This document shows positions 2,378 through 7,385 of a stretch of 64,000 nt of DNA, in pieces (within the stretch, counting starts at the first letter, position 1; the number at the start of each line of letters is the position of its first letter). The stretch spans positions 11,987-75,986 of the forward strand of contig BDTG01000005.1 of assembly GCA_002897695.1 (NCBI GenBank). The letters run 5' to 3'. The translations under genes were made by a program, and so were the position numbers. A model generated the notes under the pieces. It worked only from the letters and a program-made list of their open reading frames with translations, was not told the DNA's origin and did not search any database. This DNA is from a bacterium BMS3Abin14 (GTDB lineage: Bacteria > BMS3Abin14).

Positions 2378-4189
2378 CTACAGGGACAATGGCGGGATTC
2401 CTTCCTCGCTCCATCCCCTCTGCTTATAGTAGAGATCCAGGATCTCCTCGTACTCCTCCCTGGACACTACGCTCCCTTTTCTGGGCCCTGACGGTACAGG
2501 GTCATCAAATGTGCGCCTGGGCGGATAGTCGTCCTTGCGGCCGATCCCCAAGCGGACGTTGATGGCCCGGGTAAGATCGAAGATATGGTTGGAACACCGG
2601 GCCAGTTCCTCCATGGACCTCTCCACCCCGGTGACGGCCTTATAGAACCTCTGATAATACTCCTCGGGAAAACCAAGCTCGATCCATGGAAGACGACAGA
2701 CCCCCAGCATGTCGAAAAGGGGCCGGATTGTCTGATGGTAGATGACGAGATCCGCCTTTTCCGAAAGACTCCAGCCGATGCCGTTCTCAAGTTCGGAGGC
2801 GACCGTCCACGATCTGGTGTGATGCGCGCCTATATCCGAGGTCCCATATCCCAGCGCCATGGAGACGGCCGCCCTGGAATCGTAGGCCGACTGTTCAAGC
2901 CCCTTGACGTGGGACAGGATCCCGTCCAGCCCCGGCCACCTGGCAATAATGGCCTTCGCCCCTCCAGCGAGGGTGTCGCCGACGCCGTCACGACGCGCTA
3001 TTTTTTCAATGAGCTGCAGGATCGTCTCCTCATCGCCCCAGGACAGCAGCATGCCGTCAAGATCTTCCTGCGTAACAACACCCTTTTCCTGGCCCTCGAT
3101 CATGGCGCCTACAATAGACCCCGATGAAATCGTGTCCAGCCCCAGGTCGTCGCAGAGGGAATTTGCCTTCAGAATGCAGGCGAAGTTGGAGACCCCCAGG
3201 TTGCTCCCGAGCATGGCGGCGGACTCATACTCCGGTCCCTCGGTCACCGTGCCCCGGTATTTTCCCTCCTTGACCAGGCAGACATTTCCGCATGACATTG
3301 AGCATCCAAAGCATGCCGTGTCGCCGATCTTGTAGCGGTCCTCCATGACGTAGCCGTTCATCCTGTCGGCACGATCAAAGGAGGTCTCCTGGAAATTCCT
3401 CGTGGGCAGGATTCCCATGGAGTTGGCATAATCGATCACCGACATGAGCCCCTGCTGCTGCCAGAACCGGAAAAGCCCATGGGATTTTAATAGATCGTAG
3501 CCCTCGCGGGACACCTCAACCAGAGCGCCCAGATCATGAACGGGCAGGTCCCTGGAACCGCGGACAGCAATGGCCTTCACGTTTTTCGACCCCATCACCG
3601 CGCCGATGCCTATACGACCGGCATTTCTGCTCCAGTCGGCATTTACGCAGGAGAATACGGCCCTGTTCTCCCCGGCCACGCCTATGGAGGCGATTTTCAT
3701 GTCCTCGTCACCAGTCACCCCGCGGACCAGAGCTTCCGTCTCGATGGTGGTCCTTCCCCTGGCCTCGGGGATGGGGATGATCCTGACACGATCGTCCTCG
3801 ATGGTAAGGGCCGAAAGTTCAGGGGCACGGCCCCGAAGCACTACCGCATCGTAACCCGCCTGGCGCAACTCCACGCCGAAAACGCCTCCCATGCTGCTGT
3901 CGCCATAGATCCCGGTCGCCGGAGAAAGGGTGATAAAGGAGTTCTTTCCCGAGGCGGGCAGATACAGACCTGTGAAGGGACCTGGGGCTATTACAAGGAT
4001 GTTTTCCGGCCCAAGGGGATCAATCCGGTTTCCATGTTTTTTCACGTTGTCGGCAACAAGACGAGCGCCAAATCCGCGGCCGCCGATGTACTGAAGAGCG
4101 AAATCCTCATCGAAGGAACGGACGGACGATTCGCCACGGGAAAGATCAACCTCCAGAATTTTAAAAAAATACCCGCCCTTAAGTTTCAT
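2378..4189 (-). CDS. aor: Tungsten-containing aldehyde:ferredoxin oxidoreductase
   Basis: The 603-residue product matches the AOR family in length and order: N-terminal pterin-binding domain (YIGGRGFGARL near residue 35), the SRNAGR/GSKNVKAI region, and a C-terminal cofactor domain. The [4Fe-4S] cluster ligands are visible as CxxCxxxC (C293, C296, C300), and a later LGVC supplies the usual fourth cysteine. The enzyme oxidises aldehydes to acids and reduces ferredoxin. The start at 4189 overlaps the upstream ferredoxin stop by 11 bp, which implies translational coupling. An ATG 51 bp further upstream would put a non-conserved tail in front and lies inside the ferredoxin gene. Which aldehyde is used cannot be told. 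Confidence 0.95.
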   Translation of the reverse strand: MKLKGGYFFKILEVDLSRGESSVRSFDEDFALQYIGGRGFGARLVADNVKKHGNRIDPLGPENILVIAPGPFTGLYLPASGKNSFITLSPATGIYGDSSMGGVFGVELRQAGYDAVVLRGRAPELSALTIEDDRVRIIPIPEARGRTTIETEALVRGVTGDEDMKIASIGVAGENRAVFSCVNADWSRNAGRIGIGAVMGSKNVKAIAVRGSRDLPVHDLGALVEVSREGYDLLKSHGLFRFWQQQGLMSVIDYANSMGILPTRNFQETSFDRADRMNGYVMEDRYKIGDTACFGCSMSCGNVCLVKEGKYRGTVTEGPEYESAAMLGSNLGVSNFACILKANSLCDDLGLDTISSGSIVGAMIEGQEKGVVTQEDLDGMLLSWGDEETILQLIEKIARRDGVGDTLAGGAKAIIARWPGLDGILSHVKGLEQSAYDSRAAVSMALGYGTSDIGAHHTRSWTVASELENGIGWSLSEKADLVIYHQTIRPLFDMLGVCRLPWIELGFPEEYYQRFYKAVTGVERSMEELARCSNHIFDLTRAINVRLGIGRKDDYPPRRTFDDPVPSGPRKGSVVSREEYEEILDLYYKQRGWSEEGIPPLSL

Positions 4190-4712
4190 CCTTTTTGCCC
4201 TTCTCTTTTGTGTAATGAAGGATCTTCTTCTGACCTCCATCCATATACTCCACCTTGCTCATCCTGGCGTAATGCTTTGCTGTGGAGAGCCTGTGCGCCT
4301 GGCCCATAATATGCCTGGGATGGAACTTCAACGCCTCCTTGGGACAGGCCTCCACACACAACGGCGCACCATCACAGAGGTCGCATTTAAGGGGCCGATC
4401 CAGATCCTCGTGCAGAAACATGGCGCCGAATGGACAGGCAGTAATACACTGATTGCACGAGATGCACCTTTCCTCGTCCAGGCGCACAACACCATCCTCC
4501 CGATAGATGGCGTGGGTCGGGCAGCTCTCGCCGCACTTGGGCACTCCACACTGCCTGCACACAATAGGCATTCGTATAACAGGATGTGGATAGAGGACCA
4601 TGACCCTCATCCTGCTTTTTTTGGGATTATTGACGCCCTCCCGCCCGACGCTGCAAGCGAGTTCACAGACCTTGCATCCCGAACATCTCTCAGGAATAAC
4701 CGTCAACTGCAT
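4179..4712 (-). CDS. Four-cluster ferredoxin-type electron-transfer subunit of the AOR
   Basis: The 177-residue iron-sulfur protein is of the HycB/DmsB type. Four cysteine groups are visible: CSGCKVCELAC near the N-terminus, CRQCGVPKCGESCP, CISCNQCITACP and CDLCDGAPLCVEACP. This is the usual arrangement for four [4Fe-4S] clusters. It is the first gene of a two-gene operon with the aldehyde oxidoreductase, so it most likely accepts electrons from that enzyme. No twin-arginine signal is present, so it should be cytoplasmic. The upstream 300 bp carries a heptamer-periodic repeat tract and no other gene on this strand. Confidence 0.93.
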   Translation of the reverse strand: MQLTVIPERCSGCKVCELACSVGREGVNNPKKSRMRVMVLYPHPVIRMPIVCRQCGVPKCGESCPTHAIYREDGVVRLDEERCISCNQCITACPFGAMFLHEDLDRPLKCDLCDGAPLCVEACPKEALKFHPRHIMGQAHRLSTAKHYARMSKVEYMDGGQKKILHYTKEKGKKDET

Positions 4713-4851: not shown

Positions 4852-5011
4852 AACCCAGGCATAAGGAACCAAATTGATGCCCACTGTTATCTCCGAGGTC
4901 GCTTTACGGAGGAGACAGCTCGCGATGACATCCTTTTGGTTTCAGCGGTTCAAAAAGGACTATTATGAAAATTCCTTTGCTGGTAAGATTTACGAGTAAG
5001 GGGGAAAAATT

Positions 5012-5236
5012 ATGGGCGATAAAATCCTGATCTACGGAAAATCCACGTGACCTTACACTAATGAGGCCCGTGAGGCCTACAGGGCGAAAGGTGTGAAGGT
5101 GGACTACCGTGATGTAAAGTCCAATCCCGTGTTTCTCGATGAGATGCTGGAGATTGGAGACGGGAACAGGAGAGTTCCCGTCATTGTTGACCATGGAAAG
5201 GTTACCGTCGGCTACGGCGGCACCTGAGGGGTCTAG
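5012..5236 (+). CDS. Selenoprotein with two in-frame UGA codons (UXX-star type, glutaredoxin-like)
   Basis: A standard translation misses this gene. Reading from ATG 5012, the frame is open for 74 codons if UGA at 5048-5050 and 5225-5227 are read as selenocysteine; it ends at TAG 5234. The start has a good ribosome site (AGGGGG, 7 bases upstream). The protein begins MGDKILIYGKST-U13-PYT, a thioredoxin/glutaredoxin-like beta strand followed by UPYT in place of CPYC. It continues with a helix, RVPVIV (the cis-Pro region) and GYGGT-U72-GV-stop. A C-terminal Sec followed by two residues and the stop is what gives the UXX-star selenoprotein families their name (from memory). A hairpin follows each UGA at the distance expected for a bacterial SECIS. 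Probable role: thiol/selenol redox chemistry in the cytoplasm; the partner is unknown. SelA, SelB, SelC and SelD must be encoded elsewhere. Confidence 0.85.
5064..5078 (+). promoter_or_regulatory. Candidate bacterial SECIS hairpin for the first UGA
   Basis: AGGCC (5064-5068), loop CGTGA, GGCCT (5074-5078) form a perfect 5-bp stem. The apical loop begins 18 bases after the UGA at 5048-5050 and contains G residues, which fits the spacing and loop rule for SelB-binding elements in bacteria. It lies inside the coding sequence, as expected. Confidence 0.6.
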
Positions 5237-5238
5237 AT

Positions 5239-5256
5239 AACCGGCGGACGCCGGTT
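5239..5256 (+). promoter_or_regulatory. Candidate bacterial SECIS hairpin for the second UGA
   Basis: AACCGGC (5239-5245), loop GGAC, GCCGGTT (5250-5256) is a perfect 7-bp stem. The loop begins 18 bases after the UGA at 5225-5227 and starts with GG. Because the TAG stop is only three codons after that UGA, the hairpin lies in the 3' untranslated region. It could also act as a weak convergent transcription barrier for the minus-strand gene ending at 5260, although no T-run follows it. Confidence 0.6.
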
Positions 5257-5259
5257 CAA

Positions 5260-5871
5260 CTACCGCTCCTGAGCACTGACGGGCGGCGCCAGGAGCGACT
5301 CCACGGGCTCCGATCCCATATTCCGCACCAGCACAAAACTCTTTATCAGGCTTTTGTTCACCGCCAGAAAGGAGTGGATGAGCTTCGCTTGGTCGAACAC
5401 CTCGCTTATGCCCGGGTCGATAAGGGCATCTAGCTTCTCCGTGGTATTCCAATCCGTGAGGACTCCCATGAAATCATGGCGCTGGGCAGGGACCAGCGCT
5501 CTTTCCAGACACATTTCAACGTCCTCGGCGATCTTCTTGACGGCAACAACGCCTGAAATCTTCTCCAGCGTCACCAGTTCCATGGAAACGTAAAGGTTGA
5601 CCTGGCTTCGCCTCTCGTATCTGGCTCTTTCCGACTTGGTACTGCGGGGACACACGTAATCCCTTACTCCTACGATGAAATCCTTGTTCACGTGATGTCC
5701 ATCCACCGTTTTCAGGATTTTGGATGGTCCGTTCAGGATTCTTATCAGTCCCTCTCCCTCGATCTTGGCGTGAAGAACCTTCCGGCGGTATCGTTTGATC
5801 TCCTCGTAGCCGAATACACCCATGGGATATTCGGGGAAGATGGAAATATATTTCGTGGACTCAGTGGGCAT
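5260..5871 (-). CDS. Conserved-looking protein of unknown function
   Basis: The product has 203 residues from an ATG at 5871, which lies 5 bases after the stop of the upstream membrane-protein gene; GGATC of that gene's end can serve as ribosome site. There is no signal peptide or membrane segment. The sequence alternates charged and hydrophobic residues and contains GVRDYVCPRSTKSERARYER followed by a possible coiled region. I do not recognise a family. It is probably co-transcribed with the upstream four-TM protein. A longer frame up to 5961 exists but would overlap that gene by 85 bp. Confidence 0.65.
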   Translation of the reverse strand: MPTESTKYISIFPEYPMGVFGYEEIKRYRRKVLHAKIEGEGLIRILNGPSKILKTVDGHHVNKDFIVGVRDYVCPRSTKSERARYERRSQVNLYVSMELVTLEKISGVVAVKKIAEDVEMCLERALVPAQRHDFMGVLTDWNTTEKLDALIDPGISEVFDQAKLIHSFLAVNKSLIKSFVLVRNMGSEPVESLLAPPVSAQER

Positions 5872-5876
5872 AAAGG

Positions 5877-6248
5877 TCAGATCCAGGCGAAAACCGCCGC
5901 TCCGGTGACTACGAAAATCAGCCCCCACAACCTCAGCCCCATCTCGGAGATACCCAACCATGTGGCGATCAGCGCCCGGACCGTCTGCTCGTTACCCACC
6001 AGGAAGAAGACCCCTTTTCCGACAATCAGGATGCCAATGATAAAAAGAAACCACACCACACCGCTCCAGAACGAGGCGACTGTCAACAAAACGCCGAAAA
6101 GGGCGATGGAACCTCCCCATACCTTCAGGTTGGCCTCAGCGGCAAACCATTGAAGAAAATCCCTTACCTTTTCAGTGTGGAGAACCATGGCACTGCCAAT
6201 GGCAATCCAGAGAACCGATACGATAAAAAGAAACCACACCATTTCCAT
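5877..6248 (-). CDS. Small integral membrane protein, four predicted TM segments
   Basis: The 123-residue protein has hydrophobic stretches at about residues 3-24, 43-62, 64-82 and 101-122, with short polar connections (HTEKVRDFLQWFAAEANLKVWGG; NEQTVRAL). The pattern resembles small DUF2065-like membrane proteins, but the family is not certain. It is first in a probable two-gene unit with the unknown gene ending at 5260. Its 5' flank carries a copy of the TCGTAAAAAGTCC repeat. Confidence 0.7.
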   Translation of the reverse strand: MEMVWFLFIVSVLWIAIGSAMVLHTEKVRDFLQWFAAEANLKVWGGSIALFGVLLTVASFWSGVVWFLFIIGILIVGKGVFFLVGNEQTVRALIATWLGISEMGLRLWGLIFVVTGAAVFAWI

Positions 6249-6296: not shown

Positions 6297-6333
6297 CCGT
6301 ACAACGTCCACTCACGGCTTTTTACGAAATCCT
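6297..6333. repeat. Dispersed TCGTAAAAAGTCC palindromic repeat, degenerate copy
   Basis: GTCCACTCACGGCTTTTTACGA gives the right arm and centre of the family, in the spacer between two minus-strand genes. The left arm is decayed. The better copies are at 31698 and 63214. Confidence 0.55.
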
Positions 6334-7385
6334 TATTCTCTGAATTCAAAATCAGTGACGTCAATCCACGGAGCATTTCCCTCGGCACTGAACACCTGCC
6401 CATAAATGGTCAGGATGGCCCCTTTTCTGGCCAGCTGGATTTTTTTGGACAGTTCCGCGTTCTCCCGCGGGGTGAACAACCGCCAGAGGACGTAATCGTT
6501 GGATTCGACCTGAAAATTGACATAGTCTACCGAATTTCTGGGGCTTTCAAAACCCGCCGTTTTCTTTCCGACACTGGTACCCTCCAGGTAGATGGGCAAC
6601 ACGCTGTGCAGATAAGCGTAGAACTTCACTTTCTTCCCTACCAGGTTACGTGCATCAACCGCCAGATGTTCTACCGATACTTCTTCAAACTGGGAAAGCA
6701 GTTCCCGCATCCGCGCCTTCGCATCACTCACATGGAGATTGTCGGGGTACCGACTGATGAACTCGCGATATCCACTCAGCTTGTCCGCGGACTTATAGGT
6801 GATGAAGATAACATAATCCCTTCTTTCAAGAGCTCTCTGGAAATAATAGTTGTCGGGATGCTTTCTCATGAATTCCTCGAAAGCCTCGGCGGTACCTCTC
6901 AGCTTGTAGGGCCTGAAAACAATTCCGTCGGCTATCCGCTCCGCCTCCGGCCGCAGCTCACTTTCGGGGTTATCGGACACAAATTTGCGAAAAGCCTCCT
7001 CCGAACCCGCTAACGTCGCCTTTATCATGGCCCCGTATTCAGGCAGGTTGCTGAATATGAGAATCGCCCCGGTTTCCCTGATCCTGTTCACAACGTCCAT
7101 GGAAAGCGGTTCGCTGTAGATCTGGTCGGAATAAACATTCTTTACCTTGATTCGGACAACCGGGTCGCCCTTCTCACTGAACACGTAAAGTGTTTCGCCC
7201 TCCTCGATATTTTTAAGGGAATTGCTTTCCCTGCTGATCTTGACAACAGGGGACACGGACCCGAGGAGCGCACCACCTCGGACAATCTCCGCACCGGCAT
7301 TAACGCTCCAGGCGAGGCTAAAGACCAGGCTTAGAAGAATGGCTTGGCCTGTGTATTTTCTCATCTGTTTCGTCGCACTATTCAT
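6333..7385 (-). CDS. Exported protein with TPR-like repeats, unknown function
   Basis: The 350-residue protein has a signal peptide in the first 32 residues (KYTGQAILLSLVF core, cleaved near NAGAE). Residues about 40-110 look like a small beta domain (GETLYVFSEKGDPVVRIKV). Residues about 120-240 contain three similar helical units with the pattern F..F....P(D/E)N.....A..R, suggestive of TPR/BamD-like repeats. The C-terminal 110 residues form a second beta-rich domain (GKKVKFYAYLHSVLPIYLEG and AILTIYGQV). I cannot name the family. It is likely periplasmic and stands alone, about 40 bp downstream of the Smr gene. Confidence 0.75.
   Translation of the reverse strand: MNSATKQMRKYTGQAILLSLVFSLAWSVNAGAEIVRGGALLGSVSPVVKISRESNSLKNIEEGETLYVFSEKGDPVVRIKVKNVYSDQIYSEPLSMDVVNRIRETGAILIFSNLPEYGAMIKATLAGSEEAFRKFVSDNPESELRPEAERIADGIVFRPYKLRGTAEAFEEFMRKHPDNYYFQRALERRDYVIFITYKSADKLSGYREFISRYPDNLHVSDAKARMRELLSQFEEVSVEHLAVDARNLVGKKVKFYAYLHSVLPIYLEGTSVGKKTAGFESPRNSVDYVNFQVESNDYVLWRLFTPRENAELSKKIQLARKGAILTIYGQVFSAEGNAPWIDVTDFEFRE

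Follow-up and report, generated by a model that had tools for sequence, protein, structure and literature searches.

A short gene with two in-frame UGA codons in a BMS3Abin14 bacterium probably encodes a double selenoprotein of UXX-star family 1

A 74-codon reading frame that is interrupted twice by UGA raises two questions: whether both codons are read as selenocysteine (Sec), and what a protein with two such residues would do. The frame lies in a 64,000-nucleotide stretch of DNA from a BMS3Abin14 bacterium (hereafter, the window), where it occupies positions 5012 to 5236 of the forward strand, with 74 codons followed by a UAG stop (5234 to 5236). Translation of the window with TGA read as Sec gave the product MGDKILIYGKSTUPYTNEAREAYRAKGVKVDYRDVKSNPVFLDEMLEIGDGNRRVPVIVDHGKVTVGYGGTUGV-stop. 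The ATG at 5012 is preceded by a purine-rich ribosome-binding site, AAGGGGGAAAAATTATG; the ribosome-binding region ahead of the ATG is GGGGAAAAATT (5001 to 5011, forward strand), and a similar purine-rich site is present in most homologues. The first UGA is codon 13 (5048 to 5050), which places Sec at the glutaredoxin nucleophile position (KST-U-PYT). The second is codon 72 (5225 to 5227), and the C-terminal end reads GGT-UGA-GV-UAG (5225 to 5236), so that the Sec-X-X-stop terminus is present (GGT-U-GV). The product contains no Cys, as is the case for 15 of the 17 other homologues with Sec at both positions. The frame, its ribosome site, and the positions of both UGA codons, all named in the original prediction, were borne out by the window sequence. 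Three weak candidates for further genes interrupted by UGA came out of a crude scan of the window.

We searched the product against protein family models, among them those of the UXX-star families, to which the original prediction had pointed. The NCBIfam model for UXX-star selenoprotein family 1, NF041114, was matched at 113.9 bits against a curated equivalog cut-off of 72 bits, with residues 5 to 74 aligned to positions 1 to 70 of the 70-position model, and it was matched by all 22 aligned homologues. The product also scored above the cut-off of a broader NCBIfam model, NF041212, and matched the Pfam glutaredoxin family PF00462 at 46 bits (cut-off, 22.9). A 2026 review lists NF041114 as "Distant Grx-like protein 1 (UXX-star selenoprotein family 1)," with a UxxT motif and two Sec residues (PMC13188914), and the product has both features (UPYT at residues 13 to 16 and U72). 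In the same review, the 2008 GOS survey is given as the source of UXX-star family 1, and Haft and Tolstoy 2025 as that of both family 2 and the fusion form (PMC13188914). The claim that two Sec residues are rare in so small a protein needs correction; with NF041114 listed as having two Sec residues, the double-Sec architecture is already catalogued and is not unusual in the family (PMC13188914).

Compared with UXX-star family 1, the product shares the full-length match, the glutaredoxin-like character, the UxxT motif, the C-terminal U-X-X-stop, and the two Sec residues, and it differs in nothing essential; the 74-residue product itself is a new sequence. Families 2 (NF041211) and 3 (NF047338) are likewise glutaredoxin-like and end in Sec-X-X-stop, but the product scored 49.5 and 52.1 bits, below their respective cut-offs of 100 and 97. 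Similarly, the C-terminal 72 positions of the HUGP/GUXX-star fusion selenoprotein (NF045501) match the product, but the fusion is 236 residues long and the score was 52 bits against a cut-off of 325. Bacterial glutaredoxin 3, YruB, and NrdH share its fold and nucleophile position, whereas their classical members carry CxxC and a third helix where the product has UxxT and a Sec tail, and the scores fell below cut-off. The gene is clearly a well-supported addition to a known, computationally defined selenoprotein family and not a new kind, and we hold with high confidence that it is a real double selenoprotein belonging to UXX-star family 1.

Conservation at residues 13 and 72 bears directly on whether the two UGA codons are read. 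Of 193 genomes surveyed, 23 contained an above-cut-off match, in most cases with two in-frame TGA codons. A single-sequence scan of a contig collection gave no loci, and an alignment-based scan gave 36. Among the translated loci, 18 proteins, including the window product, have Sec13 and Sec72, 37 have Cys13 and Sec72, two (L073 and L082) have Cys at both positions, and one (L072) has Cys13 and Ser72; the Cys13 count is inflated and the Sec-to-Cys proportions are biased, because the scan pattern was written with Cys and all 36 of its loci are consequently Cys13. Position 13 in the UXX-tail homologues is thus Sec in 18 and Cys in the rest, with no exception, while position 72 holds Sec in 55 homologues, Cys in two, and Ser in one, so that Cys homologues are known for each Sec. 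The original prediction had staked its case on Sec or Cys, rather than random residues, at both positions, and apart from the single Ser this is the pattern that we found. When U is equated with C, alignment columns 13, 56 (Pro), and 72 are invariant. Two further matches, L044 and L045, have Cys13 and lack a C-terminal Sec. The final residue is Val or Ile in nearly all homologues, and the U-X-X-stop pattern is conserved over several phyla; L055 and L076 end in Sec-X-X-X-stop rather than Sec-X-X-stop. Between the window gene and its nearest relative there are 15 synonymous and 9 non-synonymous codon differences, and both UGA codons are retained.

The source genome (2.28 Mb, with a listed completeness of 100) encodes the full Sec machinery. 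We detected selA (575 bits; cut-off, 268), selB (361 bits; cut-off, 242), selD (355 bits; cut-off, 125), and the tRNA-Sec gene selC (72.7 bits; gathering threshold, 47), with selA adjoining selB on contig C29. The prediction of a selenoprotein had been made to depend on these four genes, and all are present. In the selD gene (L011), the usual active-site position is occupied by an in-frame UGA (KAAGUAAKLG), which makes selD a second gene whose UGA must be read as Sec and SelD itself a predicted selenoprotein. Over the whole window, Rfam at gathering threshold reported one tRNA and nothing else.

As the original prediction had stated, each UGA is followed by a hairpin whose loop begins 18 nt downstream. 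SECIS 1, AGGCC[CGUGA]GGCCU (5064 to 5078, forward strand), lies inside the coding frame after UGA 13, and SECIS 2, AACCGGC[GGAC]GCCGGUU (5239 to 5256, forward strand), lies entirely 3′ of the stop codon after UGA 72. The published criteria for bacterial SECIS elements (bSECIS) specify a loop of 3 to 9 nt, an upper stem of 4 to 16 bp, a G at loop position 1 or 2, and a loop 16 to 37 nt from the UGA; both hairpins conform, the first with a CGUGA loop on a 5-bp stem and the second with a GGAC loop on a 7-bp stem. The Ala-Arg-Glu codons under SECIS 1 are GCC-CGT-GAG in 14 of 18 Sec13 genes, and CGT encodes the Arg in 16 of the 17 Sec13 genes with Arg versus 10 of 32 Cys13 genes (Fisher P = 2e-5, uncorrected for relatedness). 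Judged from this codon usage, synonymous sites beneath SECIS 1 are constrained in Sec13 genes but free in Cys13 genes, a pattern that links the constraint to the Sec codon. Among Sec13 homologues from beyond the taxonomic family of the bacterium, some have a weak SECIS 1. We predict Sec insertion at both UGA codons of the window gene; SelB and Sec-tRNA(Sec) would read each as Sec, directed in each case by the codon's own hairpin.

An AlphaFold2 model of the product, made from 22 sequences with Cys substituted for Sec, had a pLDDT of 89.2 and a pTM of 0.74 and followed the glutaredoxin order of strands and helices through strand 63-66. In Foldseek and VIA-align comparisons with the PDB, glutaredoxin-type proteins ranked first (best VIA Z, 10.2, with an rmsd of 1.7 over 66 residues); the sequence and fold search matches included no solved UXX-star structure. 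The VIA ranges all stop at residue 70, indicating that the third glutaredoxin helix is absent and that the Sec72 tail takes its place. DSSP assigned short bridges in the model at residues 72-73 and at residues 54-55, the latter just before cis-Pro56. By elimination, these bridges would pair with each other, which would set the tail beside the segment that precedes cis-Pro56. In glutaredoxin-glutathione complexes, the segment before the cis-Pro holds glutathione.

The product would most likely act as a thiol/selenol oxidoreductase. Sec13, at the first Cys position of CxxC, would attack the substrate. Sec72, carried on the short tail that replaces helix 3 and probably situated by the cis-Pro56 loop, would lie near Sec13 and act as the resolving residue, an internal stand-in either for glutathione or for the second Cys, in whose place the product has Thr16. 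We give an oxidoreductase mechanism with a Sec13-Sec72 partnership roughly an even chance. With no Cys in the chain, an internal bond could form only between the two Sec residues, and we tentatively suggest, at somewhat less than even, a cysteine-free glutaredoxin in which the Sec tail replaces both helix 3 and glutathione and catalysis proceeds via a Sec13-Sec72 diselenide.

Diselenides have a very low redox potential, and reducing a Sec-Sec pair might therefore be difficult; this would favor metal binding, the main rival to the redox pair. Under this explanation, the product would still be a genuine double selenoprotein, with its two Sec residues forming a predicted site for a metal or metalloid (Hg, Cu, As, or similar), and it would be a chaperone or scavenger, not a disulfide reductase. 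The absence of Cys, the predicted closeness of the two Sec residues, and the missing second cysteine of CxxC are in keeping with such a site, and the 2026 review allows that the Sec of UXX-star proteins may be a metal-binding ligand (PMC13188914). However, the glutaredoxin nucleophile position, the cis-Pro, and the Gly-Gly region are all retained, and no metal-resistance gene was recognized among the recurring neighbors examined. We regard a metal or metalloid site as a serious possibility, short of probable.

The original prediction had drawn attention to a tungsten aldehyde ferredoxin oxidoreductase (AOR), and an AOR gene is indeed present on the reverse strand at 2378 to 4240 (PF01314, 388 bits; PF02730, 217 bits), adjoined by a gene for a 4Fe-4S ferredoxin-like protein (4179 to 4712, reverse strand; Fer4 families); the listing of the AOR gene here does not imply membership in a common system. 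The product could serve this enzyme, for example as a redox repair partner, and the divergent AOR gene does lie ∼1.7 to 2.0 kb away (between midpoints) in each of the 10 taxonomic-family genomes that carry the selenoprotein gene. However, AOR is encoded on the opposite strand, so the two genes do not form one operon, and it stands among other syntenic genes, with further neighbors also syntenic inside the taxonomic family. AOR was found in 0 of 47 other loci within the stretch examined (several contigs are short), and the flanking genes at deltaproteobacterial loci have housekeeping roles (ndk, rlmN, and an endonuclease III-like gene, for example). Outside the taxonomic family, a search for a common operon or a functional partner nearby gave nothing beyond housekeeping synteny. 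Because the AOR neighbor is conserved only in the taxonomic family of the bacterium, it is weak evidence for function. We give little weight to a link to tungsten enzymes and consider a role in the service of AOR improbable. Two other conserved neighbors on the reverse strand, at 5260 to 5961 and 6333 to 7385, have no Pfam match and are common to several genomes of the taxonomic family.

A rival explanation for the end of the gene is that a single UGA is recoded, with the protein ending at codon 71, UGA 72 acting as a normal stop codon, and the hairpin after it being a terminator or a product of chance. Just two residues lie past UGA 72, and a terminator stem could resemble a post-stop hairpin. 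The comparative data on SECIS 2 argue against this explanation. In shuffle tests that repeated the hairpin choice in every shuffle, SECIS 2 gave P = 0.008 for the window sequence alone, and P was ≤0.02 in 18 of the 22 Sec72 genes tested. In these 22 genes, the loop starts 16 to 24 nt past the UGA, and it opens with G in 18. The inner pairs occur as C-G, G-C, and A-T in different sequences, which are compensating changes. Counted with a loop-anchored script (a MAFFT alignment of the post-stop regions mixed loop lengths), 109 of 110 inner-pair cells pair, versus 67 on average and at most 82 with the 3′ arms permuted among sequences, the value of 109 being inflated by the picking of hairpins for maximal pairing. 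A similar hairpin is present in 31 of 33 further Sec72 loci, a count made without shuffle statistics, and a post-stop hairpin is thus present in 53 of 55 Sec72 homologues overall; in L055 and L076, the homologues with UXXX-stop ends, no good hairpin was found in the tested distance range. As controls, we examined homologues in which residue 72 is not Sec. The Cys72 homologue L073 has no hairpin (P = 0.37), and the Ser72 homologue L072 has a weak one (P = 0.08). The other Cys72 homologue, L082, has kept a hairpin with a GGUCA loop at SECIS distance (P = 0.04), perhaps as a remnant of a recent Sec-to-Cys change. Together with the steady hairpin distance, the covariation, and the conserved U-X-X-stop terminus, the absence of a T-tract 3′ of SECIS 2 in the window and the presence of Cys in place of UGA in L073 and L082 make a single recoded UGA very improbable.

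Of the 53 U-X-X-stop homologues, 24 also terminate with UGA, nine bases past the Sec UGA, so that one codon would be read in two ways within that distance. Since UAA or UAG occupies this site in relatives, the second UGA is most simply a stop. Such UGA-N6-UGA ends were observed in L029, L030, L031, L032, L036, L037, L039, L041, L058, L061, and others.

Finally, a decaying glutaredoxin with two accidental stops could present as a short frame with two in-frame UGA codons, but both codons are conserved in 18 genomes, some of them far outside the taxonomic family, both hairpins are conserved too, and the Sec machinery is complete, so we dismiss this explanation as exceedingly improbable.

These findings confirm a prediction made from raw sequence alone. 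UXX-star family 1 has so far been computationally defined, and comparative evidence is now added to that definition, including a second SECIS that covaries while lying wholly after the stop codon. The UGA-N6-UGA ends of nearly half of the relatives could serve to test, in natural sequences, the SECIS distance rule and the way in which SelB distinguishes Sec UGA codons from stops. With its two Sec residues and no Cys, the very small product makes a Sec-Sec pair directly testable.
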